Shown piece after piece: positions 13,302 to 27,002 of a stretch of DNA of 64,000 bases. The translations under genes were made by a program, and so were the position numbers. This stretch comes from Serratia sp. FDAARGOS_506 (lineage in GTDB: Bacteria; Pseudomonadota; Gammaproteobacteria; Enterobacterales; Enterobacteriaceae). The notes beneath the pieces are model-generated. The model searched no databases, was not told the DNA's origin, and was given only the letters and a program-made list of their open reading frames with translations. The stretch spans positions 4,278,001-4,342,000 of the forward strand of contig NZ_CP033831.1 in the NCBI RefSeq assembly GCF_003812745.1, read 5' to 3'. Position 1 is the first letter of the stretch; every line of letters begins with the position of its first letter.

Positions 13302-14720
13302 TTAACCGGCCGCCGCCAGCCCCCGGATAAGTTTGGCTAAGGTTTTGATCGCCTCTTCAAACCGGTCGTTCCATTCAAAAGAGGCGTTGAGGCGGAAGCA
13401 GTGGTTGAAATGGTCGCCGGTGGTGAACATGCGCCCCGGCGCGATGCTGATGCCCCGTGAGAGTGCGCGCCGGTACAGTTCCATCGACGACAGCGCCTGA
13501 TCCAGCTCCAGCCACAGGAAATAACCGCCGTCGGGCTGACTGACTTTCACCGTCGGCGGGAAATGGTGGGCGATCGCCTGCCGCATCGCGCTTTGGCGCT
13601 GGGCCAGCAGGCGGCGCAACCGCCGCAGATGGGTGTCGTAGCCACCGTGCAGCAGATAATCCGCCAGTGCCATCTGGGTCGGTACGCTGGTGGAAACGGT
13701 GCTCATCAGTTGCAAACGCTGGATCTGTTGCGCATAACGCCCCGCCGCCACCCAGCCGACGCGAAAGCCCGGCGCCAGGCATTTGGAAAACGATGAGCAG
13801 TGCAGAATCTGGCCGCCGCTGTCGAGCGCCTTGGCCGGCAGCGGCCGTTCCGCGCTGAAGTACAGCTCACCGTAAACGTCATCTTCAATCAGCGAGATCT
13901 GTCGGTCGCGCAACAGCGTCACCAGCCGCTGCTTGTTGGCCTCCGGCAGGGTGGCACCCTGCGGGTTCTGGAAATGGGTCATCAGCCAGCAGGCTTTGAT
14001 CGGATACTGTTCCACCGCCTGCTGCAGCGCGTCCAGATCGATACCGTCCTGCGGATGCGTGGCGATCGCCACCGCCTTTAACCGCAGTCGTTCCAGCGCT
14101 TGCAGCGCGCCGTAAAACGCCGGCGATTCGATCGCCACATAGTCTCCCGGCTGGGTCACCGCCTGCAGGCTGAGGCTGAGCGACTCCATCGCCCCGGCGG
14201 TAATGACGATCTCGTCCGGCGCGACCTGCATGCCGCTCAGCGCGTAACGCTGGGCAATGTGCCGCCGCAGCGCATCGTTACCTGGCGGCAGGTTGGCCAG
14301 CGAACTGTGTGGCGTGAATTTGCGCGCCACGCTGCTCAGCGCACGCGCCAGCTTGGGCTGGGCAAACAGCGTGGCGTCGGGAAAGGCCGAACCGAAAGGC
14401 ACGATATCCGGATCCTTGCAGGCCTGCAGCACGTCGAAAATAAAGGCGTTGATGTCCACCTGCTCGCTAAGCAATAGCTTCTCGCCGCGCGAAGGCTGAG
14501 GCAGCGGCTGCGGGCGCGCCGCCACGTAGTAGCCCGACTGCGGCCGAGCGACGATCCAGCCCTGGCTTTCCAGCAGTTGGTAAGACTGTACCACCGTCAT
14601 CAGGCTCAATCCGGCGCGTTTGCCACTCTCGCGCAGCGAAGGCAGCTTGTCGCCCGCCCGCCACACCCGGTTCTGAATCTGTTCTCTAATCTGCTGCGCA
14701 AGCTGTTCGTATCGGGTCAT
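13302..14720 (-). CDS. ydcR: MocR-family regulator: GntR HTH fused to aminotransferase fold (YdcR-like)
   Basis: Predicted PLP-binding transcription factor, 472 residues. Residues 1-75 form a GntR winged helix (AGDKLPSLRESGKRAGLSLMTVVQSYQLLESQGW). The rest is a class I aminotransferase domain with NPQGATLP, DDVYGELYF and the PLP lysine Lys313 in SSFSKCLAPGFRVGW. Length and sequence resemble E. coli YdcR. It is divergent from cioAB with a 144-base spacer, and a perfect TATAAT flanked by direct repeats lies just upstream, suggesting autoregulation. A role in controlling cioAB or the adjacent ABC importer is only inferred from position. Confidence 0.88.
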   Translation of the reverse strand: MTRYEQLAQQIREQIQNRVWRAGDKLPSLRESGKRAGLSLMTVVQSYQLLESQGWIVARPQSGYYVAARPQPLPQPSRGEKLLLSEQVDINAFIFDVLQACKDPDIVPFGSAFPDATLFAQPKLARALSSVARKFTPHSSLANLPPGNDALRRHIAQRYALSGMQVAPDEIVITAGAMESLSLSLQAVTQPGDYVAIESPAFYGALQALERLRLKAVAIATHPQDGIDLDALQQAVEQYPIKACWLMTHFQNPQGATLPEANKQRLVTLLRDRQISLIEDDVYGELYFSAERPLPAKALDSGGQILHCSSFSKCLAPGFRVGWVAAGRYAQQIQRLQLMSTVSTSVPTQMALADYLLHGGYDTHLRRLRRLLAQRQSAMRQAIAHHFPPTVKVSQPDGGYFLWLELDQALSSMELYRRALSRGISIAPGRMFTTGDHFNHCFRLNASFEWNDRFEEAIKTLAKLIRGLAAAG

Positions 14721-17451: not shown

Positions 17452-17718
17452 TTATCTGGCCGCGCTGTTGGGAAAGTAGAAGGATACCACCAGCGTGACC
17501 AGCGGCAAGGCGCCGATCTTCACCAGTTCGAACGCTTGCCTCAGCGCTTCGTTTTTCTCCCAATACGCGTGGGCGGCGAATACGCCCACGCTGACCACGA
17601 AGATCCCGCACAGCACCTGGCGCGCCAGGCGCAGCCGCTCCATTTCGTCGAAGACCAAGACCTGCTCCAGATAAACCTGGCTAGCCTCATCGCACAGATT
17701 ATGGCTTTCGATGTTCAT
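17452..17718 (-). CDS. Small membrane protein of unknown function
   Basis: I do not recognise this 88-residue protein. It has two hydrophobic segments (VLCGIFVVSVGVFAAHAYW about 36-54 and ALPLVTLVVSFYF about 70-82) after an acidic, Glu-rich N-terminal 30 residues, so a two-helix inner-membrane protein is likely. The start overlaps the stop of the upstream ribbon-helix-helix-like gene by 4 bases (ATGA), so the two are coupled. The stop faces the end of the cioAB operon 10 bases away. Confidence 0.6.
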   Translation of the reverse strand: MNIESHNLCDEASQVYLEQVLVFDEMERLRLARQVLCGIFVVSVGVFAAHAYWEKNEALRQAFELVKIGALPLVTLVVSFYFPNSAAR

Positions 17719-17939
17719 GGGAAGATCTCCACGACCCGCCCCACCGCTTCAAGCTGTTCACCATTTTCCCGTACAATGCCAAGTGAAGTACCATCCTGTT
17801 TCATCCAGTACTTATCGGCAATGGTAATCAGTGCAAACGCCATTTTGATTACCTCGGTTTTTTCCATCCCGTGACGCCAGGCGATAGCGTTCAGATCATC
17901 ATCAATTTTATTCGATACCCGAATCGGCAAGCTGCGCAT
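17715..17939 (-). CDS. Small ribbon-helix-helix-like protein
   Basis: A 74-residue protein. MRSLPIRVSNKIDDDLNAIAWRHGMEKTEVIKMAFALITIA resembles a ribbon-helix-helix fold: a short basic beta strand, a helix, then a second helix starting KTEVI, as in CopG/Arc-type DNA-binding proteins. The C-terminal 30 residues (DGTSLGIVRENGEQLEAVGRVVEI) look like a small beta hairpin. AGGAGG stands 7 bases before the ATG. Coupled to the membrane gene at 17452-17718. A DNA-binding or antitoxin-like role is conceivable but unproved. Confidence 0.6.
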   Translation of the reverse strand: MRSLPIRVSNKIDDDLNAIAWRHGMEKTEVIKMAFALITIADKYWMKQDGTSLGIVRENGEQLEAVGRVVEIFP

Positions 17940-18045
17940 ACTCCACCTCCTGTGGTCGTTGATTCACCGAGGGAAAGTCTACTGGAAGGGCAAACATCGT
18001 TCAATTAGTGAACTGCGTAACGCCTCGCACAATCCGCATGCAACG

Positions 18046-19131
18046 CTATTGGGGCTTGCGCCCCATCGCGCCGAGGAAACGCTGCTGCAGGCGCAACAGC
18101 TCCTCCAGCTCCAGCAGGCGGTAGTCGATGCCGAAATGCGGTGCCACCTCACCGATGATGCGGCTCAGCGCCGGGTAATGACGGTGGCTCCAGTGCGGGA
18201 ACAGATGATGCGTCAAATGCAGGTTCGCCCCGCCGAGCCAGTATCCCAACCAGCGTGGCCGGGTCAGCCAGTCGAAGGTGGTGGCGAACACATGATGATA
18301 CCAGCCGTGTGGCATCGCGCCCTGCGCCGGCGCCTGATAAAAATTGGCCTTGGCCCAGTGGGTACCGATGATCAACATCACGAACAGCAATGAAGAAAGC
18401 ATCTGACTCAACAAATAGACCAGCAGAATTTGCCCGATGCCGATGGCCGGCGGCAGCAGCCAGCACGGGATCGCCAGCGCCAGCAGCAGGTGTGCCGCTT
18501 TGCCCGCCAGAAACTCGCACCAGCCGCGCACGCCCTGCTGCGCCATGCGCGCCGCCACGCGGGTTCGGCCCGCCCGATCCAGCCAGTCGAACAGCCAGAT
18601 GTAGTACGGGAACGTCAGCGCCGCCACCAGCGGCCAATAGTAACGCTGCGCGCGCATAAAAGGCCGCCAGCGCTGGAACGGCGTTTGCCGCAACACGCCG
18701 TTGGCATCGATGTCGGGATCGTAATGTTCAATATTGTTATGGGCATGGTGGAACAGCACGTGCCGCACGCGCCAGCAGTCGGGATCCAGCCCCAGCGGCA
18801 CGCTCACCAGTGCGTTCAGCCAGCGATTGGCCCCGGGCCGACGGAAAAACGCGTTATGCGAGGCGTCGTGCACCACGTTCACCGTCAGGAACATGCCGAT
18901 AAAGATAAAGCCGAAATAACAGGCGAAAAACGCCCAGCCGTTTTGCTGCTGCAGGCTCAGCCCGTAACACAGGCCGCACAGCGCCAACAGTAACGCCACC
19001 TTAGCCAGCATGCCGCCGTCGGCGAAGCGGTGATCGCCGTTGGCCGCCAGATAATGCTGGGCGGCCTGCATCAGCGCGCGATGCAACCCGCTATCGTCGC
19101 GCCGATAAGCTAACGGGCGCAACGGTTTCAT
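18046..19131 (-). CDS. Membrane fatty acid desaturase (second of a tandem pair)
   Basis: Di-iron membrane desaturase or hydroxylase acting on acyl chains, 361 residues. The three histidine boxes are present: VHDASH (88-92), RHVLFHH (123-129) and NLHLTHHLFPHWSHRHYP near residue 310. Two pairs of hydrophobic helices separate them. It is a close paralogue of the preceding gene with boxes at identical positions, so it arose by tandem duplication. It is the last gene of the eight-gene operon; the ATGA overlap with its neighbour sets the start at 19131. A GGGGC/GCCCC hairpin (18051-18064) lies at its 3' end. Which bond or carbon is modified cannot be told. Confidence 0.85.
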   Translation of the reverse strand: MKPLRPLAYRRDDSGLHRALMQAAQHYLAANGDHRFADGGMLAKVALLLALCGLCYGLSLQQQNGWAFFACYFGFIFIGMFLTVNVVHDASHNAFFRRPGANRWLNALVSVPLGLDPDCWRVRHVLFHHAHNNIEHYDPDIDANGVLRQTPFQRWRPFMRAQRYYWPLVAALTFPYYIWLFDWLDRAGRTRVAARMAQQGVRGWCEFLAGKAAHLLLALAIPCWLLPPAIGIGQILLVYLLSQMLSSLLFVMLIIGTHWAKANFYQAPAQGAMPHGWYHHVFATTFDWLTRPRWLGYWLGGANLHLTHHLFPHWSHRHYPALSRIIGEVAPHFGIDYRLLELEELLRLQQRFLGAMGRKPQ

Positions 19132-20210
19132 GGTTGCCCCATCCGGCGCAAGAAGTGTTGTTGTTGCGCCAGCAATTCGTGATAACCGATGCAGCGATAC
19201 GCCATGCCGTGCCGCTGCGCCACTTCCGCCACCGCGGCAGCCAGCGCTGGATAATGGCGGTGATTCCAGCCTGGAAACAGGTGATGGGTCAGGTGATAGT
19301 TCAGCCCGCCGGTCAAGTGCTCCAGCCAGCGCGGCTCGGGACGCCAATCGCAGGCGGTGGCGAAATTGTGCCGGTACCAACCGTGCGGCATGCTGCCGCC
19401 CGTCGGCGCCGGGTAAAACTCGGCCTGCGCCCAGTGGGTGCCCAGCAGTAGGAACACCACCAGCAGCGAGGCAAACATCTGGCTGAGCGTGTAAGCCAGC
19501 AGCACCCAGCCCCAACCGATGCCATGCAGGTGGCACAGGATCAGCGGCACCACCAGCACCAGCGCCACATGGAGCAACTTGCACAGCACGAACAGCGCCC
19601 AACCGCCCCGCCCCGCCAGCACGCGTTTTTCCCGCAGCGGCGTTTTATCGAGCCGATCGGACCAATCGAAAATCCACGCAATGTAAGGAAGCGAGAGCGC
19701 GGCGATCAGCGGCCAGTACAGATGCTGATAGCGCATATGCGGCCGCCAGCGCTGGAACGGCGTCTGGCGGAAAAAACCGTTCTCTTCGGTGTCCAGATCG
19801 TAGTGTTCGACGTTGGCGTAAACGTGGTGGTAATCCACATGGCGCGTGCGCCAATAGTCCGGATCGACGCCGAGCGGCAGCGTCACCAACCGCCCCACCA
19901 GGCGATTGGCCCAGGGCGCGCGCAAGAAGGCGTTATGCGAAGCATCGTGATTGACGTTGACGTTAAGCAGCATGCCCATGGCCACGAACAGGAAATAGCA
20001 GAGGAAAAACGCCCAGGGCTGATGCTGCATCAGGCTCAGCGCGTAAAACCCGATGCACAGCGCCAGCAACAGCGCGGCCTTGGCCAGCCGCGCGGCATCG
20101 GCATAGCGATGATCGCCCGCCAGGCAGGCGTGCGCCGCGTGCTTGAGATCGCGGTGAAACGCCTGCTCGCCATCGGCGGGAAAACGCAGCGGCGGTAATG
20201 ATTCAGCCAT
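19128..20210 (-). CDS. Membrane fatty acid desaturase (first of a tandem pair)
   Basis: Di-iron acyl desaturase or hydroxylase, 360 residues. Histidine boxes are NHDASH (88-92), RHVDYHHV (124-129) and NYHLTHHLFPGWNHRHYP near residue 310. These are of the linoleoyl-CoA/delta-6 desaturase-like family (HDxxH, HxxxHH, H/QxxHH). No cytochrome b5 domain is attached. The start at 20210 has GGAGG 6 bases upstream and overlaps the sterol-desaturase-type gene by 8 bases. The substrate is probably the product of the upstream synthase genes, by inference from the operon. Confidence 0.85.
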   Translation of the reverse strand: MAESLPPLRFPADGEQAFHRDLKHAAHACLAGDHRYADAARLAKAALLLALCIGFYALSLMQHQPWAFFLCYFLFVAMGMLLNVNVNHDASHNAFLRAPWANRLVGRLVTLPLGVDPDYWRTRHVDYHHVYANVEHYDLDTEENGFFRQTPFQRWRPHMRYQHLYWPLIAALSLPYIAWIFDWSDRLDKTPLREKRVLAGRGGWALFVLCKLLHVALVLVVPLILCHLHGIGWGWVLLAYTLSQMFASLLVVFLLLGTHWAQAEFYPAPTGGSMPHGWYRHNFATACDWRPEPRWLEHLTGGLNYHLTHHLFPGWNHRHYPALAAAVAEVAQRHGMAYRCIGYHELLAQQQHFLRRMGQP

Positions 20211-21336
20211 GCGGTTCCTCCACGGCGACCGGTGCGGCCACTCGCCCCCAGCCCAGCGCCACGCACAGAGCATGTAGCGCCACAGCGGCCATGGTGATAT
20301 GCCAATAACGCTGCGGCCAGCCGAGATAGCCGATAAACAGCAGCGGCATGCCCAGCGCGATCAGCAACCAGACGGCGCTCGCCCACGGCCGCCCTTCGGT
20401 CATACCGCCCAACGCCGCCGAGCCCAGAGCCAACAGCGCCAGCAACATCATTTGCGGCCAACTGATGTCGCTATAGCCATAACCGTATTGGTAGACGTAA
20501 CCGACCACCAGCGTAAACAGCAGCATCGCGCCGCTGAATACGCTGAGCGCCGAACGGCGGTCGCGCGGCCGGCCCGGCGCCGGACGCCAGGCCAGACGGA
20601 AATAACGCAGGAACGGCAGGTTACTCGCCCAAAATGGGTTGGCGGACGACCGATCGCCGCTGACGCCGTAGCTGAACGGCGTGGTCGGCAATGCCGGGCA
20701 GAACGTGCCGAACAGCTTGTCCCAAAAGATAAAGCTGCCGCCGAAGTTCTTATTGGAATACGCCATGTCCTTGACGTGGTGCACCCGGTGGTGCGCCGGC
20801 GTGACCAGGATTTTTTCCAGCACGCCGAGCTTCGGCGTCAGCGCATTGTGGTTAAACAGCTGAATGCTGTAGTGAAAAATCGACACCGTGACAAACACCG
20901 ACAGCGGCACGCCCGCCAGCGCCAGCAGCAAAAAGAACGGGATCGACGTCAACGACGAATACCAGGAATTGCGCACCCCCAGCGACAGATTAAAGTGCTC
21001 GCCCTGATGATGAACCACATGTACCGCCCACAGCAGCCGGAAGCGATGGTGCAGACGGTGCAGCCAGTAGAAACCGAAGTCCCACGCCAGCAAAGCGAAC
21101 AGCCACATCAACAGCGGCGGCCAGGCATCCAGCAGCTCCAGACTGAAATGCGCGGCCACGTAGCCGTAGCAGGTAATCTCCAGTCCGCGGAACAGCCACA
21201 GCATGATATGACCGGAGTTCAGGTTGAACACCAGATCGTGCCAATTGACCGGCTCACGACGACCCCACTGCAGCGCCACCGCCTCGGCCACCACGATGAA
21301 CAGCATGAACACTATCGGCAACGCCAGATCGCTCAT
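20203..21336 (-). CDS. Sterol desaturase / fatty acid hydroxylase superfamily membrane protein
   Basis: Integral di-iron enzyme of 377 residues. The histidine motifs of the superfamily are clear: HRLHH (93-97), HVVHH plus His114 (106-114) and AHHRVHH (182-187). An extra C-terminal region of about 130 residues with four hydrophobic helices is unusual for a hydroxylase of about 250 residues. Family members hydroxylate or desaturate sterols, sphingoid bases and alkylglycerols. The ATG at 21336 has GGAGA 6 bases upstream and overlaps the PAP2 stop by 4 bases. Confidence 0.85.
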   Translation of the reverse strand: MSDLALPIVFMLFIVVAEAVALQWGRREPVNWHDLVFNLNSGHIMLWLFRGLEITCYGYVAAHFSLELLDAWPPLLMWLFALLAWDFGFYWLHRLHHRFRLLWAVHVVHHQGEHFNLSLGVRNSWYSSLTSIPFFLLLALAGVPLSVFVTVSIFHYSIQLFNHNALTPKLGVLEKILVTPAHHRVHHVKDMAYSNKNFGGSFIFWDKLFGTFCPALPTTPFSYGVSGDRSSANPFWASNLPFLRYFRLAWRPAPGRPRDRRSALSVFSGAMLLFTLVVGYVYQYGYGYSDISWPQMMLLALLALGSAALGGMTEGRPWASAVWLLIALGMPLLFIGYLGWPQRYWHITMAAVALHALCVALGWGRVAAPVAVEEPHG

Positions 21337-21950
21337 CCCATTTCTCCTTTAACCACACGCCGGCGCAGGGCCTTTATGCGCAGGGCCAGCCAGCCGGCGA
21401 ACAACGCCAGCAGCGTCCCGCCGGCCAAATCGACAAACAAATGCCGGCGCAGTTGCAGAATGGAGAACGCGATCGCCACGCCCCACAGCATCCACAACGC
21501 CGTCCGCACTTTATGCTCGCCGTCGCTCAGCGCCCATACCGCCAGCACCGTCAGCGCCATGTGCAACGAAGGCAGGCAGTTCTGCGGCGAATCCACCTGC
21601 GTTAGCGCCGCCAGCAGCTGCGCGCTGATCCCAACGCCATCGTTCTGCGGATAGGCCATGGTGGTCGGCCACAGCAGGTAAACCACTCCGGCGCCCAACG
21701 CCGTCAACTGCATCGCCAGCGTCAGCCATTTGATCCGTTGCAGCGGCGCCAGCAAATAACCCGCCGGGACGATGAGGAAAAACGACAGGTAGAGCCAGAT
21801 GGCCGCAGGGTTGAACGAGATAGCCCGGTCAAGCGCCGACGGCGGCAACAGGGTTCCCGCCCCCTGCAAACGATCGGTCACGCTATACACCACCCCGACC
21901 GTCCCCCAGCCCAGCAACATGTGCCCTAGCCGGAACAGCATATTTTTCAT
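21333..21950 (-). CDS. PAP2-superfamily membrane phosphatase or phosphotransferase
   Basis: Integral membrane protein of 205 residues with about six hydrophobic helices. It carries NCLPSLHMA (His130) and RRHLFVDLAGG (Arg168-Arg169, His170, Asp174), the His-His-Asp catalytic set of PAP2 enzymes. The first KxxxxxxRP motif is not seen. This pattern (PSLH then RHxxxD) resembles the inositolphosphotransferase/IPC-synthase-like branch, which transfers phospho-head groups between lipids. A head-group transferase or phosphatase for the operon's lipid is inferred. GGAGG stands 3 bases before the ATG and the gene overlaps its upstream neighbour by 4 bases. Confidence 0.8.
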   Translation of the reverse strand: MKNMLFRLGHMLLGWGTVGVVYSVTDRLQGAGTLLPPSALDRAISFNPAAIWLYLSFFLIVPAGYLLAPLQRIKWLTLAMQLTALGAGVVYLLWPTTMAYPQNDGVGISAQLLAALTQVDSPQNCLPSLHMALTVLAVWALSDGEHKVRTALWMLWGVAIAFSILQLRRHLFVDLAGGTLLALFAGWLALRIKALRRRVVKGEMG

Positions 21951-23233
21951 GCGTCCTCCGCCCGGCGCACGATGCGCCGCCGCTTGCGATCGAACTGCGG
22001 CAACACCGCCTGTGCCGTCAGCCGCCATTCGAGCCGATCGGTGGCAATACCCTGGCGAGCGAACAGCGCGATCAGCTGCGCCTGACAGTGCGCCAATTCC
22101 GCCTGGCTGCAATCGGCGATCAGCTCCAGCCGCTGCTCGCCGCGCTGGATCAGGCGGTAATCGCTGGTCAGCGGCAGCGCATTGGCGATCGTCCGGCTGC
22201 AGGCATCGGCGAACACTGCCTGCGGTTGCCGCTGCGCATCGGGCAGCATCAGCTGATCGTCGCGCCGCCCTTCGATACGCGCGATCGCCCGCGTCGGCTG
22301 CCCGCACGGGCAGGGTTCCTTGCGCAGCACCAGCACATCGTCCAGCCGATAACGCACGATCGGCTGTGTGCTACGGGTAAAGTCGGTGATCAACGGCGTA
22401 AAACGCTGCTCGTCGATCCACTGCGGTTCGATATGCAAAAACTCTTCGTTCAGATGCAGCGTGCCGTGCGAGCAGGTCGCGGCAAGGAATCCTTCGGTAG
22501 CCTGATACACTTCGCCCACCGCGGGAAACACCTGCATCAGCAGGCGGCGATCCTGCTCTTCCAATACTTCGGCCACCGAGATCGCTTTTTTGACCGGCAG
22601 CTTCACCTGCCCAGCCAGCACTGCCAGCGCCAAGGCGCGCAGCACCTGCGCCGGGGCTACGATGATGCTGGGTGCCTGCCGCTCCAATGCGGGCAGATGC
22701 TCACTGAACGGCGCTAGCAGATCGTAAAACGCCAGGCTCAGCCAACGATTGTTCACGCTGTGATAGAGATTATTGTCCGCCCGCAGAAACAGCGCGACGC
22801 GCTCGCCGGCCAACAGCCCGTCCGGCAGCATTTTCGCCAGCATGCCGCCGGCCCACACCTGCTGTTCGCGCGGACTGACGACAAACACGCCGCGCTGCCC
22901 GGATGTGCCGGACGACAACCCGACGCTGTAGCGCCCGATCTTCGGCGTGAAATCGCGATCCGCCTCGCTGCGCTGCGCGCAGGCCAGTACCGCATCACGC
23001 TGCAGCCCGGCGGTATTCATCCGGTCGAACTGCGCCATCATCAGCGCCTTGTCCATCTGCGGCCATTCGGCGAGCGGCCGCCGGCTGAAGCGCTGAAAAT
23101 AGGGGCTCTTGCTCAGCACCCGGCGGGCAAAGCCCGCGAGCTGCCGAGCCTGATGCGCCTCCAGCGCCGCACGATCGCCAAAGCGCAGGCGCCGGGCGCG
23201 GAAATAGTGCCAAAGGGTCATGAAGGAGATCAC
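21947..23233 (-). CDS. F390 synthetase/PaaK-like adenylate-forming enzyme
   Basis: Member of the ANL-like superfamily related to coenzyme F390 synthetase and phenylacetate-CoA ligase, 428 residues. The nucleotide-binding loop is YSVGLSSGTSGQRGVF (102-117); VYQATEG and YRLDDVLVLRKEPCPCG follow, the YRxxD motif and a CPCG pair. Such enzymes activate a carboxylate as acyl-AMP. The start is GTG at 23233, with GAGGGGG 4-5 bases upstream and a GTGA overlap with the MBL gene; an ATG 12 bases later (23221) is less well placed. No carrier protein is encoded nearby, so the acceptor is unknown. Confidence 0.82.
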   Translation of the reverse strand: MISFMTLWHYFRARRLRFGDRAALEAHQARQLAGFARRVLSKSPYFQRFSRRPLAEWPQMDKALMMAQFDRMNTAGLQRDAVLACAQRSEADRDFTPKIGRYSVGLSSGTSGQRGVFVVSPREQQVWAGGMLAKMLPDGLLAGERVALFLRADNNLYHSVNNRWLSLAFYDLLAPFSEHLPALERQAPSIIVAPAQVLRALALAVLAGQVKLPVKKAISVAEVLEEQDRRLLMQVFPAVGEVYQATEGFLAATCSHGTLHLNEEFLHIEPQWIDEQRFTPLITDFTRSTQPIVRYRLDDVLVLRKEPCPCGQPTRAIARIEGRRDDQLMLPDAQRQPQAVFADACSRTIANALPLTSDYRLIQRGEQRLELIADCSQAELAHCQAQLIALFARQGIATDRLEWRLTAQAVLPQFDRKRRRIVRRAEDA

Positions 23234-24036
23234 AGGTCCCCCTCGTGGCACAGCAAAATGTTGACCTGCCCGCCCGCCCACAGCTGGTTGAGCCGCTCCA
23301 GCGTACGGGTGTATGCCACCGCGTCGTCCATCACCAGATTGGCCAGGCGCGAAGGCCCGCGCAGCGTCTGGTAGCTCTGCGGCGACCATGCGGCGTCGCT
23401 GGCCAACAGCGTCCAACCGGCGTCGGTAAGGATAAAGGCGCCGATATGGCCGGCCGCATGCCCCGGCAACGGCACCAGCACGATCTGCCCTTCGCTGCCC
23501 GGCAGCGCGTAACCGCGATCGAACGGCGCCAGCAACGCGGGCAACGCCAGCGAGGGAAATGCCTCCATAAACTGCAGGCGGCTCTCGAAATCCGCCGGGA
23601 TCAGGCCGGGAATAAAGGCGCGCTTCAGCGCCGCGAAACCGCGCAGCCCACGGGTTTGCTGCCAGCCTTCGCCGGAGCAAATAAAATCGAGTTGGCTGAA
23701 ATCCTGCAGCCCGGCAATGTGGTCCGCGTGAAAGTGCGAGACGATCAGCGCCTGGATGTCGCCTTCGGCGTAACCGGCCTCACGCAGCTGATGCGCCAAC
23801 GACTCGGCGGGATCGAAATAAACCGGCGTCATGCGGCGATAAAGGCTGAATACCCCCGACTGCGTGTGCTGCTGAAAATAATGCGCGTAGCCGGTATCCC
23901 ACAGCCAGCGGCGCTCCCCCACCTCCAGCAGATAGGCGCGCGCCGGGAATTTGCACACCCGGAACCCGGCTCCGCGCAGCGCCATGCAGCCGATATGCGT
24001 GCAATAGCCCACTTCAAATACGGTGACCTTAGCCAT
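23230..24036 (-). CDS. Metallo-beta-lactamase-fold hydrolase
   Basis: Probable dinuclear-zinc hydrolase of 268 residues, cytosolic. The metal motif HFHADH (101-106) is perfect; further ligands are His193 or His197 in PGHAAGH, Asp214 in LASDAAW and His264 in LLCHEGDL. The overall layout resembles the N-acyl homoserine lactonase (AHL lactonase)-like and thioesterase-like branch. In an operon with a ketoacyl synthase and an acyl-AMP enzyme a thioester or lactone substrate is likely, but it is inferred. Overlaps the SDR gene by 8 bases and the adenylating enzyme by 4. Confidence 0.83.
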   Translation of the reverse strand: MAKVTVFEVGYCTHIGCMALRGAGFRVCKFPARAYLLEVGERRWLWDTGYAHYFQQHTQSGVFSLYRRMTPVYFDPAESLAHQLREAGYAEGDIQALIVSHFHADHIAGLQDFSQLDFICSGEGWQQTRGLRGFAALKRAFIPGLIPADFESRLQFMEAFPSLALPALLAPFDRGYALPGSEGQIVLVPLPGHAAGHIGAFILTDAGWTLLASDAAWSPQSYQTLRGPSRLANLVMDDAVAYTRTLERLNQLWAGGQVNILLCHEGDL

Positions 24037-25045
24037 GCTGTACGCCTCCTTGCTGCCGCAGCCACTCCCCGGTCAGGTGGATCCCCTCCTCCATCGAGTA
24101 ACGCGGCCGGTAGCCCAGCTCTTCGATCGCGCGAGTCTGACTCAGGGTCATGTCGAAATGCACTGCCGCCACGCTGTAGCGCGTCAGCCTCGGTTCTTTG
24201 CCACTGAGGCGTGCCCACAGCTCCATGCCGCCGGCCAACGCCTGCAGCAGCGGATACGGCACAGCCTGCAGCCGGTAGCGCAGCCCCAGCTCTTGGCGCA
24301 GCAACGCATCCAGCATCTCCGCCAGCCGCTGCGGTTGGTGGTTGGTGATGTTGTACACGGCGCCGGACTGCAATCCGCGTTGCCGGCTGGCCAGCTCCAT
24401 GGCGTGCACCACGTTGGGAGCAAAGGTCAGATCCAGCAGCGCCTGCCCACCGCCGGGCAGCCGCAGCACGCCGCGATCGCGTTCGAGCTGTTGCAACAGC
24501 CGCGGTACGATCACCCGATCGTGCGGGCCAAACAGGCCGCGCGGCCGCAGAATGATATAGGTGGTTTGCGGGTAGATCTTCGCCTGCGCCAACAACCGCT
24601 GCTCGGCGGCGTGCTTGCTGGCGGCATAATGATTGGCGAAGCGCCGGGCGCGATAACCCTCGTCAAGCTTGTAATGCGGCTGAAAATCGAAGTAGATTGC
24701 CGGCGTGGAGATATGCACGAAACGCCGCACGCCGCAGCGCCCGGCCGCCTCCGCCAGCTTCTCCGTCGCGGCGGCGTTGATGCGGTGAAACTCCGCTTTG
24801 CTGCCCCAGGGCGATGACTTGGCCGCACAGTGCCATACCCACTCGCAGTCGGTCACCAGCTGCCGACACTGCGGCGGCGTGGCCTGCGCCAGATCGAGTG
24901 AGTAAAATTCGGCGCCCAGCCGGCGCAACGCTTCGCCGGCCCGCTCATCGCGGCCGGTGGCGCGCACCTGATGCCCGGCCTCCAGCAACCACTGCGCCGC
25001 GTTGCGCCCCAGTCCGCTGGTCGCCCCGGTCACCAGCACCCTCAT
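24029..25045 (-). CDS. NAD(P)-dependent epimerase/3beta-HSD-family oxidoreductase
   Basis: Extended short-chain dehydrogenase, 338 residues. The N-terminal Rossmann motif is VTGATSGLG (5-13), with Asp51 in SLDLA; the catalytic Ser113/Tyr140/Lys144 are in HIST and HYAASK. The domain resembles 3beta-hydroxysteroid dehydrogenases and OleD, which reduce or oxidise a hydroxyl beta to a carbonyl. Its start overlaps the KAS III stop by 4 bases (ATGA). Likely substrate: the beta-keto product of the synthase, by inference. A plant-type dihydroflavonol reductase-like activity is an alternative. Confidence 0.82.
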   Translation of the reverse strand: MRVLVTGATSGLGRNAAQWLLEAGHQVRATGRDERAGEALRRLGAEFYSLDLAQATPPQCRQLVTDCEWVWHCAAKSSPWGSKAEFHRINAAATEKLAEAAGRCGVRRFVHISTPAIYFDFQPHYKLDEGYRARRFANHYAASKHAAEQRLLAQAKIYPQTTYIILRPRGLFGPHDRVIVPRLLQQLERDRGVLRLPGGGQALLDLTFAPNVVHAMELASRQRGLQSGAVYNITNHQPQRLAEMLDALLRQELGLRYRLQAVPYPLLQALAGGMELWARLSGKEPRLTRYSVAAVHFDMTLSQTRAIEELGYRPRYSMEEGIHLTGEWLRQQGGVQHG

Positions 25046-26049
25046 GGCAGCAACACCATGCCGGCCAACGCCAGCCCGGCGGCGGTGCCGATCAGCATCA
25101 CCGGTTGACCGGGGTTGAAGCGCCCGGTGGTCACGGCGGCATGCAGCGCGGTCGGAATAGAGGCTGCCACCTGGTTGCCGTGATGGCGGTAGATGTCCAC
25201 CAGCGCCTCGCTGGAGACGTGCAGCCGTTTGCGCATATGTTCGAGCGACAGATGGCTGGCCTGGTGCGGCACCACGGTGGCAATCTGCGCCAGGGTCAAG
25301 CCGCTGGCGCTCAGCAGCCGGTCGAGGTAGCCCTCAATCAGCGCCGACGCCTGACGGAACAGCGGCTTGCCCTGCATATGAAACAGGAAGTCTTGCTCGC
25401 ACATGCCGGCGCGCGGGTTGCGGCGCGTGCCGCCGGCGCGGATCTCGCACAGTTCGCTGCCGGCGGGATAGGTTTCCACCAGGCTGGCGAGAATGCCGCT
25501 GGCGCCGTCGCCACGCTCCACGATGGCACAGGCGGCGCCATCGCCGAAGATCAGCGACGACTCTTCGTGCTGCCAGTCGATACCGCGCGAAGCGAGATCC
25601 GCCGAAACGATGGCGATACGCCGATACGTCCCGGCGTTCAACAGCCCCGCCGCCACCTGCAGCGCAGAGATAAAGCTGACGCAGCTGCTGTTGATGTCGA
25701 AACCAGGCGTACCCGGCGCCAATCCGGCGACCTTGAGAATATGCGCGGCGGAGCATGGCAATGCCTGCACCGCTATCGCCGAGGCGGAGATCAGCAGATC
25801 AATGGAGGCCGCCGGGATGGCACTGCGGCCCAGCGCGTCTTGCAGCGCAGCGGCGGCGAGTTCAGCCTGGCTGGCATCGTCGGCGGCGTGATAGCGGTAA
25901 ACGATGCCCGAGCGTTTCTCAACGTAGCCGGCCGGTTTCCCCAGGCGGACATCGAGCGTAGAGGAAGCCACGCGGTTGGGCGGCAACGCAGCCCCGGTGG
26001 CGATGACTTTCAGAGGCAGCAGCTCAGGTGAGCGAAATTGTGTGGTCAT
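25042..26049 (-). CDS. 3-oxoacyl-ACP synthase III (FabH/OleA-like ketosynthase)
   Basis: Thiolase-fold condensing enzyme, 335 residues. Cys123 (DINSSCVSF), His262 (VPHQAS) and Asn292 (HGNQVAAS) form the Cys-His-Asn triad of KAS III enzymes. The C-terminal half keeps the GTAAGLALAG glycine-rich loop. The Cys context differs from housekeeping FabH (AAACAGF), so this is a divergent KAS III rather than the fatty acid synthase copy; beta-keto acid or head-to-head condensation are options. It is the first gene of the operon. The ATG at 26049 lacks a clear Shine-Dalgarno, so the start is the least certain of the operon. Confidence 0.85.
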   Translation of the reverse strand: MTTQFRSPELLPLKVIATGAALPPNRVASSTLDVRLGKPAGYVEKRSGIVYRYHAADDASQAELAAAALQDALGRSAIPAASIDLLISASAIAVQALPCSAAHILKVAGLAPGTPGFDINSSCVSFISALQVAAGLLNAGTYRRIAIVSADLASRGIDWQHEESSLIFGDGAACAIVERGDGASGILASLVETYPAGSELCEIRAGGTRRNPRAGMCEQDFLFHMQGKPLFRQASALIEGYLDRLLSASGLTLAQIATVVPHQASHLSLEHMRKRLHVSSEALVDIYRHHGNQVAASIPTALHAAVTTGRFNPGQPVMLIGTAAGLALAGMVLLP

Positions 26050-26183
26050 TATTGTTATTGATTAACCTGACTATCCATAAAGCGATTCTCCCGCACGGCG
26101 CGAAGGCCACGCGGATCATCCCCGGTTTTTATGTCCCAAAATGCCTTTCATCAAGGCGGTATCTCTTGTTATCGGCTGGCACG

Positions 26184-26243
26184 GCCGACGTCCGTCGGCG
26201 GAAGCATAAACGTAACATTACTGAGATATTCAGTTTACGGCAA
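26184..26243 (-). promoter_or_regulatory. Candidate promoter and dyad in front of the lipid operon
   Basis: On the minus strand TTGCCG (26238-26243) and TAATGT (26215-26220) are separated by 17 bp, a plausible sigma-70 pair, with a start near 26208 and a leader of about 160 bases. Just inside the leader is a perfect 7-bp inverted repeat with a 2-bp centre (GCCGACG-TC-CGTCGGC, 26184-26199), placed like an operator for a dimeric repressor. Confidence 0.45.
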
Positions 26244-26285
26244 GGCGGCGAGAATAGGCAGGTGGCGGGTGAATTATCAGAATAG

Positions 26286-26312
26286 CGCCGCCGCTGGCGA
26301 TCAGCGGCGGCG
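26286..26312 (-). terminator. GC-rich hairpin after narI (weak terminator)
   Basis: A perfect 11-bp inverted repeat (CGCCGCCGCTG at 26286-26296 and CAGCGGCGGCG at 26302-26312, 5-base loop) starts 13 bases past the narI stop. On the minus-strand transcript it is followed by CUAUUCUGAUAAUU, not a true U-run, so termination may be incomplete and read into the lipid operon. Confidence 0.45.
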
Positions 26313-26324
26313 GCGGGATCAGGC

Positions 26325-27002
26325 TCAGCGGCGGTTGCGCACCAGTTGATAACGACGGGTCAGGTACTCTACCGGCGCACTCCAGATGTGCACCAGGCGG
26401 CAGAACGGGAACAGCACGAACAGCGTCATGCCCAGCACCATGTGCAGTTTGAAGATAAGCGCCACGTCTTCCAGGTGCGCAGAAGCGCCGGCGTGGAAGG
26501 TCACCACCGCCTGCGCCCAGGCCACCAGCTTCATCATTTCGCTGCCGTCCATATGCTGGGCGGAGAACGGAATGGTCAGCAAGCCGAGGCACACCTGGAC
26601 CATCAGCAACGTCAGGATCATGATATCTGCGAAGCTGCTGGTGGCGCGCACTCGTGGGTTGGTCAACCGGCGCTTCAGCAACAGCGCGCCGCCGATCAGC
26701 GTCATCAGGCCGCAGGCGCCGCCGGCTACCATCGCCAGCTTTTGCTTCACGTCGATCGGCAGGAAAGCCTCATACATCCAGTGCGGCGTCAGCATGCCGA
26801 GGAAATGACCAACGAAAATGCCGATAATGCCGATGTGGAACAGGTTGGACGCCAGCCGCATGCCCTTTTTATCCAGCATCTGGCTGGAGCCGGCGCGCCA
26901 GCTGTACTGCCCATAGTCGTAACGCAACCAGCTGCCGATCAGGAATACCGCGCCGGCCAGATAAGGATAGATATCGAAGAAGAACTGATTCAAAAATTGC
27001 AT
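26325..27002 (-). CDS. narI: Respiratory nitrate reductase gamma subunit NarI (cytochrome b)
   Basis: Membrane diheme cytochrome b that oxidises quinol and passes electrons to NarH. It has 225 residues, the same as E. coli NarI. The four haem histidines are at exactly the E. coli positions: His56, His66, His187 and His205. Five hydrophobic helices are evident. The start at 27002 ([17 protein letters not shown]) lies 2 bases past the narJ stop. Last gene of narGHJI. Confidence 0.97.

Follow-up and report, generated by a model that had tools for sequence, protein, structure and literature searches.

An eight-gene Serratia operon with a conserved four-gene core, possibly for an undescribed envelope lipid

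A stretch of 64,000 nucleotides (nt) from Serratia sp. FDAARGOS_506 (NZ_CP033831.1, positions 4,278,001 to 4,342,000), referred to below as the window, contains an operon of eight co-directed open genes at positions 18046-26049 of its minus strand. All eight genes that an initial annotation, made from the letters alone, had placed there were found, and they are lettered A to H in the order of transcription (residue conservation is given with the number of alignment rows):

Gene A, 25042..26049, minus strand: KAS III-like ketosynthase, 335 amino acids (aa); PF08541/PF08545; Cys123, His262 and Asn292 conserved (92 rows)
Gene B, 24029..25045, minus strand: extended short-chain dehydrogenase/reductase (SDR), 338 aa; PF01370; Tyr140/Lys144 conserved (94 rows)
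Gene C, 23230..24036, minus strand: metallo-beta-lactamase (MBL)-fold hydrolase, 268 aa; PF00753; HxHxDH, His193, Asp214 and His264 conserved (94 rows)
Gene D, 21947..23233, minus strand: F390-synthetase-related adenylating enzyme, 428 aa from the GTG start, 424 aa from the ATG at 23221; TIGR02304
Gene E, 21333..21950, minus strand: PAP2 (PAP2_3) membrane phosphatase/phosphotransferase, 205 aa; PF14378; PSLH and RHxxxD conserved (69 rows)
Gene F, 20203..21336, minus strand: membrane enzyme of the sterol-desaturase/fatty-acid-hydroxylase family, 377 aa; PF04116, E 8.5e-28; histidines conserved
Gene G, 19128..20210, minus strand: membrane fatty acid desaturase, 360 aa; PF00487, E 1.9e-32; His boxes conserved (49 rows)
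Gene H, 18046..19131, minus strand: second membrane fatty acid desaturase, 361 aa; PF00487, E 6e-32; His boxes conserved (33 rows)

Adjacent genes overlap by 4 nt at A/B, D/E, E/F and G/H and by 8 nt at B/C and F/G. The C/D overlap is 4 nt if D starts at the GTG at 23233, whereas the ATG at 23221 would leave a gap of 8 nt; the GTG start is supported by the relatives of the operon, because 74 of 80 measured junctions allow a C/D overlap of 4 nt, and with this start the earlier statement that all seven junctions overlap by 4-8 bases is borne out. Across the window and 80 named relatives, with the in-frame start nearest to a 4-nt overlap picked in each case (which biases the counts toward 4-nt overlaps) and with gene pairs lacking an in-frame start within 60 nt of the preceding stop dropped beforehand, an overlap was kept at C/D in 80/80 cases, A/B in 72/78, B/C in 73/79, D/E in 60/61, E/F in 53/61, F/desaturase in 53/55 and desaturase/desaturase in 20/20. 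The ratio of nonsynonymous to synonymous substitution rates of the eight genes is 0.07-0.22 against S. quinivorans (L074) and 0.03-0.12 against S. marcescens (L073), and purifying selection acts on all of them. For A, B, C and D, at least 95% of 92, 94, 94 and 97 rows, respectively, retain the catalytic residues. As the initial annotation had noted, none of these eight genes encodes an acyl carrier protein. Public annotation already gives names to individual proteins (e.g. 'F390 synthetase-related protein' in E. coli and other records). Among the matches listed by searches of the open-licence literature, which reach few subscription papers and no preprint servers, none described the operon or its product, and to that extent the arrangement is absent from described pathways, in line with the initial annotation.

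Relatives of the operon show which of its parts are constant. Scanning the contigs of 84,980 species yielded at least 569 relatives of D, of which the best 80 were mapped, with gene order read from labels. The order A-B-C-D is present in 77 of these 80 loci; the exceptions are L125, where A was not found, L129, where A was not found and a desaturase stands in its place, and L136, a 5.8-kb contig that starts in D. Annotated records from Paracoccus, Ketogulonicigenium, Rhizobium, Pseudomonas sp. FeN3W and Paraburkholderia share this order. An inserted ATP-grasp gene separates A from B in Paenibacillus and Pontibacillus, the cassette genes of Pseudomonas sp. Leaf58 are spread across 10 kb, in P. 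amygdali D alone was found in the stretch viewed, and in the unannotated Fusobacterium vincentii the matches to B, C, D and A are clustered with A last. A to D form a conserved core across genera and phyla (including some Bacillota and Alphaproteobacteria), and the genes that follow it vary.

E and F come next by label in 60/80 loci, and A-D stand alone by label in 9/80 loci and in L043, three of the nine (L119, L120 and L138) being on contigs that stop within about 650 bases of D. In three Xenorhabdus loci a PAP2 gene is found upstream of the cassette instead. In five loci the genes after A-D are a second SDR and three that encode about 375, 190 and 400 aa; the scanned tail of L090 consists of a glycosyltransferase of family GT21, a protein without a known family and another glycosyltransferase, and the other four loci were matched to it by gene size only. 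Buttiauxella and Citrobacter sp. R56 have a tail of this kind, with a second SDR and genes of glycosyltransferase type. The ~190-aa protein between the two L090 glycosyltransferase genes (13433-14017) has no Pfam or NCBIfam match, and genes of similar size occur in L098, L099, L101, L105 and L109. Both kinds of tail are combined in L093 and L098, in which an E-F-desaturase tail is followed by a second SDR and glycosyltransferase-tail genes (the SDR and the last glycosyltransferase were scanned in L093). The tail of L152 encodes a 1002-aa protein of the non-ribosomal peptide synthetase (NRPS) type, with amino-acid adenylation and carrier domains, and then has a desaturase and a PAP2-type gene; the genes of L147 are similar in size. 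DUF3419, which we take to be akin to BtaA, lies beside the cassette in L071 and in Rhizobium. Further scanned tails contain ATP-grasp, GNAT and Rieske proteins (L067, L065 and L044, the last with ATP-grasp plus Rieske). A-D is accompanied by sulfotransferase and TetR on the opposite strand in Paracoccus and Ketogulonicigenium, by ATP-grasp and GNAT in Paenibacillus and Paraburkholderia and by ATP-grasp alone in Pontibacillus; TetR or ArsR genes adjoin some cassettes. Where scanned, the tails are mostly of lipid, head-group or amino-acid chemistry. The combination of a constant A-D with interchangeable tails suggests a single lipid core with exchangeable decorations. The initial annotation had proposed one pathway for an unusual lipid; the order, overlaps and co-occurrence of the genes, conserved across genera and in the case of A-D across phyla, agree with that proposal, whose chemistry is a prediction, but it had missed the modularity, the PAP2, hydroxylase and desaturase genes being just one of several tails.

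The closest PDB chains to A are MxnB (4v2p, E 1.7e-48) and CorB (4yuc, E 1e-45), ahead of any FabH. A scores below the FabH model TIGR00747 (188.4 bits vs a cut-off of 292.1) and below its best NCBIfam model, NF005541 (PRK07204; 334.3 bits vs 402). A tree of 33 rows was built from 25 of the 92 A rows (chosen for spread), MxnB, CorB, four FabH rows and two OleA rows, the OleA rows being taken from the OleD-bearing loci L168 and L169 by weak similarity to A and not by an OleA model. In this tree the A rows form one group (support 90/85), which joins MxnB and CorB at 94/94, just under the 95 mark. The four FabH rows fall into a separate 99/99 clade; on this and on the scores under the cut-offs, a curated KAS III (FabH) assignment of A was rejected. 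The position of the OleA glutamate is occupied by Leu or Ile in 25/25 A rows and by Glu in both OleA rows. The QA[LIV]P and GG[TS]R features of MxnB and CorB recur in A, with deviations in single rows, and A has the marks of the MxnB/CorB type, namely a hydrophobic residue at the OleA/PpyS glutamate site, Q-x-x-P and GG[TS]x. The Cys-His-Asn residues are retained in A, and the 'DR' of the CoA-contact loop of FabH, the Arg of which presumably contacts CoA, is lost. According to PMC4578411, V94 replaces the PpyS glutamate in MxnB and CorB, and the two enzymes couple two chains, the carbon to be deprotonated sitting between two carbonyls.

The best NCBIfam match of B is OleD, at 148 bits vs a cut-off of 580, and B is 48% identical to a protein of the same genome that lies outside any cassette:

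YbjS, L195 8882-9900 (C2:3125893-3126891 of its own genome), minus strand: SDR-type second copy of B, named from E. coli annotation

In a tree with 23 of the 94 B rows, chosen for spread, Serratia YbjS nests within a proteobacterial clade of B rows (15 rows, 100/97), whereas four OleD rows, of which those of L167 and L168 exceed the OleD cut-off and those of L169 and L170 do not, form a 100/99 clade that holds none of the 23 B rows. By these comparisons B is a YbjS relative, nearer to this orphan than to OleD, and YbjS may be an offshoot of the reductase of the cassette. YbjS is present in 5,373 of 5,426 E. coli genomes. A passage of PMC2731931 counts ybjS among the CpxR regulon and calls it no more than a 'predicted oxidoreductase'.

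The closest PDB chains to C are mostly acyl-homoserine lactone (AHL) lactonases, and 4-pyridoxolactonase is also one of these chains. Membership in the quorum-quenching lactonase or 4-pyridoxolactonase families was rejected, as every curated cut-off is missed (4-pyridoxolactonase, 49.2 bits vs 325; AiiA, 47.2 vs 375; the remaining lactonases lower). Residues H101, H103, D105, H106, H193, D214 and H264, which we take to be the metal ligands of the MBL fold, are present in at least 95% of 94 rows and make up a full dinuclear set. D is a full member of TIGR02304 (aden_form_hyp), with 578.9 bits vs a cut-off of 251.9, the sole one of its six NCBIfam matches at E 0.001 to exceed its cut-off; none of the six is OleC-named, and no Pfam match was found at E 0.001. 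The closest PDB chains to D are phenylacetate-CoA ligases (PaaK-like), and its P-loop and late Lys are conserved. E has weak profile matches to LpxE (E 0.014, its best PDB match) and to the inositol phosphorylceramide synthase AUR1 (E 0.043 and 0.052). A profile search gave no PDB relative of F at E 0.1, and the passages of PMC5037126 gave no help in placing G and H. The family names of the initial annotation stand at the level of domains, which Pfam and NCBIfam confirm, but A lies outside the KAS III cut-offs and sides with MxnB/CorB just under the threshold, B belongs with YbjS and D, within TIGR02304, is PaaK-like.

The nearest named genomes are those of Serratia marcescens and other Serratia. 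D occurs in 24 of 30 genomes of the genus (its own counted), and four of the six non-carriers are reduced genomes of 1.5-3.6 Mb; of another 30 relatives, five have short weak D matches only and 25 have none. With D above the TIGR02304 cut-off in only 2/369 genomes across the class and 7/398 across the phylum (its own genome in both), the operon is patchily distributed. In a tree of 47 of the 97 D rows, chosen for spread, Pseudomonas, Snodgrassella and an Azoarcus metagenome-assembled genome fall within a 13-row clade alongside Serratia (95/85), and this mixture of genera points to horizontal movement. Of 5,426 complete E. coli genomes, a set from which near-copies were not removed, 672 have gene A and 672, perhaps the same ones, have gene D; the listed carriers include Nissle 1917, ATCC 25922, 83972, NRG 857C and O25b:H4-ST131 strains. 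In three E. coli records (Nissle 1917 among them), seven of the eight genes directly follow narI, and in Nissle 1917 these seven, with one desaturase and with A-D as ECOLIN_RS07415-07430, carry no pseudogene flag in the annotation. P. caricapapayae and P. cerasi, which presumably belong to the same species group as Pseudomonas syringae pv. actinidiae, carry A to G (L077, L078). A passage of PMC9823363 lists, among 91 reduced-virulence mutants of the latter, a kiwifruit pathogen, the Tn5 mutant TBc29 in a 'Coenzyme F390 synthetase' (IYO_RS29540), which is possibly gene D of the operon. A gene of the same name is mentioned for P. aeruginosa ATCC 27853, with no context, in a passage of PMC5467263, and PMC5425062 has none that bears on the operon.

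We see about an even chance that A-D, as a portable cassette, make an acyl core with a hydroxyl group and that E-H are membrane enzymes that finish it as an envelope lipid. In the proposed route, A, through its Cys-His-Asn residues, would couple an acyl chain to a carbon nucleophile (a malonyl or beta-ketoacyl thioester), giving a beta-keto thioester. C would hydrolyse this thioester, or a lactone derived from it, to the free acid, and B would reduce the beta-keto to a beta-hydroxy group using NAD(P)H. D would then adenylate the free carboxylate and hand the acyl-adenylate to a head-group acceptor or carrier. E would take off or transfer phosphate on the lipid, F would hydroxylate and G and H would desaturate chains in the membrane with O2. 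This proposal is supported by the features that A shares with the chain-joining MxnB and CorB, by the best match of B to OleD (2-alkyl-3-oxoalkanoate reductase), by the position of C near lactonases and by the PaaK-like character of D. What is observed is how the genes are ordered and overlap, that they are conserved, which families they belong to and that their catalytic residues are retained; which substrates are used, whether the steps run A-C-B-D, where each modification is placed and what the product is are inferred.

Several points weigh against this proposal. The grouping of A with MxnB and CorB lies below the 95 mark and the A group itself reaches only the support given above; loci with A-D alone make a lipid-type tail dispensable; and three genes beside cassettes have no family match (L069, 536 aa; L071, 365 aa; L090, 194 aa). 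The beta-keto reductase role of B rests on the wider family, because its nearest relative is the 'predicted oxidoreductase' YbjS, and D could act first, loading a fatty acid onto A, instead of last.

The same genes might instead make a small diffusible natural product, such as an alpha-pyrone, butenolide or beta-lactone, perhaps a signal or toxin, with the membrane enzymes merely trimming alkyl chains. The solved relatives closest to A make alpha-pyrones, as stated in PMC4578411, those closest to C are lactonases, some tails contain an NRPS module or ATP-grasp/GNAT, and both the patchy distribution and the D tree that mixes genera would suit such a product. In the commonest tail, however, the enzymes (E and F) are of membrane-lipid families. 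Membrane lipids are also the substrates of relatives of GT21 and PAP2_3. Moreover, 20 neighbour proteins scanned against Pfam (the other neighbours being unscanned) included no exporter other than an ABC ATPase and solute-binding protein of the import type upstream in L102. We regard a diffusible product as doubtful, though a serious possibility. A core that is a ceramide or long-chain-base analogue seems unlikely. The tail families are those that decorate ceramide (PAP2_3, weakly AUR1-like, FA_hydroxylase and FA_desaturase), PAP2_3, hydroxylase, desaturase and GT21 mirroring AUR1, SUR2, DES1 and GCS of eukaryotic ceramide decoration, and the L090 GT21 matches ceramide glucosyltransferase 26qs at E 3.1e-9. 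That protein also matches the hopanoid enzyme HpnI, at E 2.5e-23 (82.5 bits vs a cut-off of 310), the AUR1 matches are at just E 0.04-0.05, and no serine palmitoyltransferase or other pyridoxal phosphate enzyme is encoded among the eight genes, to which the search for the palmitoyltransferase was confined.

A hydrocarbon route resembling OleABCD, in which two acyl chains would be fused and reduced, D would form a beta-lactone and C would decarboxylate it to an olefin, is very improbable. The Ole activities (thiolase-fold condensation, extended SDR, hydrolase and adenylating enzyme) are the same set as those of A-D, and OleD is the best curated match of B, but an olefin would leave the PAP2 enzyme and the glycosyltransferases without a role. 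Membership in OleABCD was rejected: A lacks the OleA Glu, B lies outside the OleD clade, C belongs to PF00753 and not to the alpha/beta hydrolases, and D is a TIGR02304/PaaK-like protein. We give equally little credence to modification of ordinary fatty acids for existing lipids (lipid A or phospholipids) with no new lipid made; the families are solely of the fatty-acid-synthesis and desaturase types and the best, weak PDB match of E is the lipid A phosphatase LpxE, yet a dedicated condensing enzyme, hydrolase and adenylating enzyme would then be superfluous.

With an envelope lipid as the preferred product, the operon combines familiar lipid and natural-product families in an undescribed way, and there is a real chance that it makes a new lipid class. 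A broader and more tentative proposal, which we think possible but less than probable, is that A-D are the cross-phylum core of envelope lipids of an undescribed class, which a ketosynthase would build in place of glycerol or serine chemistry and to which each lineage would add its own head group (phosphate, sugars, amino acid, sulfate or betaine-type); some one in eight of the complete E. coli genomes, Nissle 1917 included, would then produce a lipid of this class that has gone unnoticed, and YbjS would derive from the reductase of the cassette. If the lipid model holds, a lipid class would have been overlooked in well-studied bacteria (gene A being present in ATCC 25922 as well as Nissle 1917), TIGR02304 would gain a function and work on YbjS a direction.

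Of the window and 95 loci checked, the window and 11 loci have narI in the stretch upstream of A, and these belong to Serratia, Escherichia and Leclercia (for example, window 26050-26330; L060, L095, L098 and L196). The right-hand flanks differ, with cyd-type genes in Serratia (named by eye) and tRNA-Tyr and purU in E. coli. The shared narI position may mean that this site was used for insertion repeatedly, or that the operon was transferred through recombination in nar. Between the two genes in the window lies the following:

narI-gene A gap, 26050..26324, minus strand: 11-bp inverted repeat at 26286-26312 just after narI, then two promoter-like sites

The inverted repeat directly after narI suggests that the operon may have its own promoter; three promoter-like sites were found in 17900-26400 vs 1.9 expected, hardly above chance, and the terminator scan did not return the 26286-26312 repeat. 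The repeat and the differing right-hand flanks argue tentatively against a single transcription unit of the nar genes and the operon. Enzymes of the FA_hydroxylase and FA_desaturase families require oxygen, and the need of F, G and H for it argues that the nar neighbourhood does not reflect a shared anaerobic programme. The site is empty in G025, of the same genus, where the match to the window stops ~38 bases past narI and resumes 65 bases on at the cyd side. The operon-free genome G002 holds other DNA there (L159 7659-8683), with two open reading frames (ORFs) that resemble a Phd/Doc pair by eye, so that the narI site appears to be a variable spot. Between H and the cyd-like genes, the window has two small ORFs of 74 and 88 aa (17452-17939, minus strand), and the 74-aa ORF and most of the 88-aa ORF are missing along with the operon at the empty site of G025. 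Rfam gave no match in 12000-34000.

MxnB and CorB of myxopyronin and corallopyronin synthesis, the nearest solved relatives of A, have Cys-His-Asn, QA[LIV]P and GG[TS]R in common with it, but no polyketide synthase is found among the eight genes (the neighbours of relatives were not scanned for one), and the A rows form their own group. YbjS, an orphan oxidoreductase of E. coli, resembles B in sequence but differs in its cassette-free location and its near-universal presence in that species. D belongs by score to the 'F390 synthetase-related protein' family, a model name that conveys no function, and no name was found for the surrounding cassette. The OleABCD proteins carry out four activities of a like general kind, each protein of the cassette departing from its Ole counterpart in a tested feature. 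The proposed A-C-B-D route follows the Ole pathway in first releasing the acid and then reactivating it, although none of the four proteins qualifies as an Ole protein by the features tested here. In quinolone synthesis, PqsD, PqsE and PqsA bring together a KAS III enzyme, an MBL thioesterase and an AMP-forming ligase in one pathway, with no reductase or membrane lipid enzymes; PqsD matches A at E 1.8e-21 only, far below MxnB, and A, C and D of the operon form an analogous trio.

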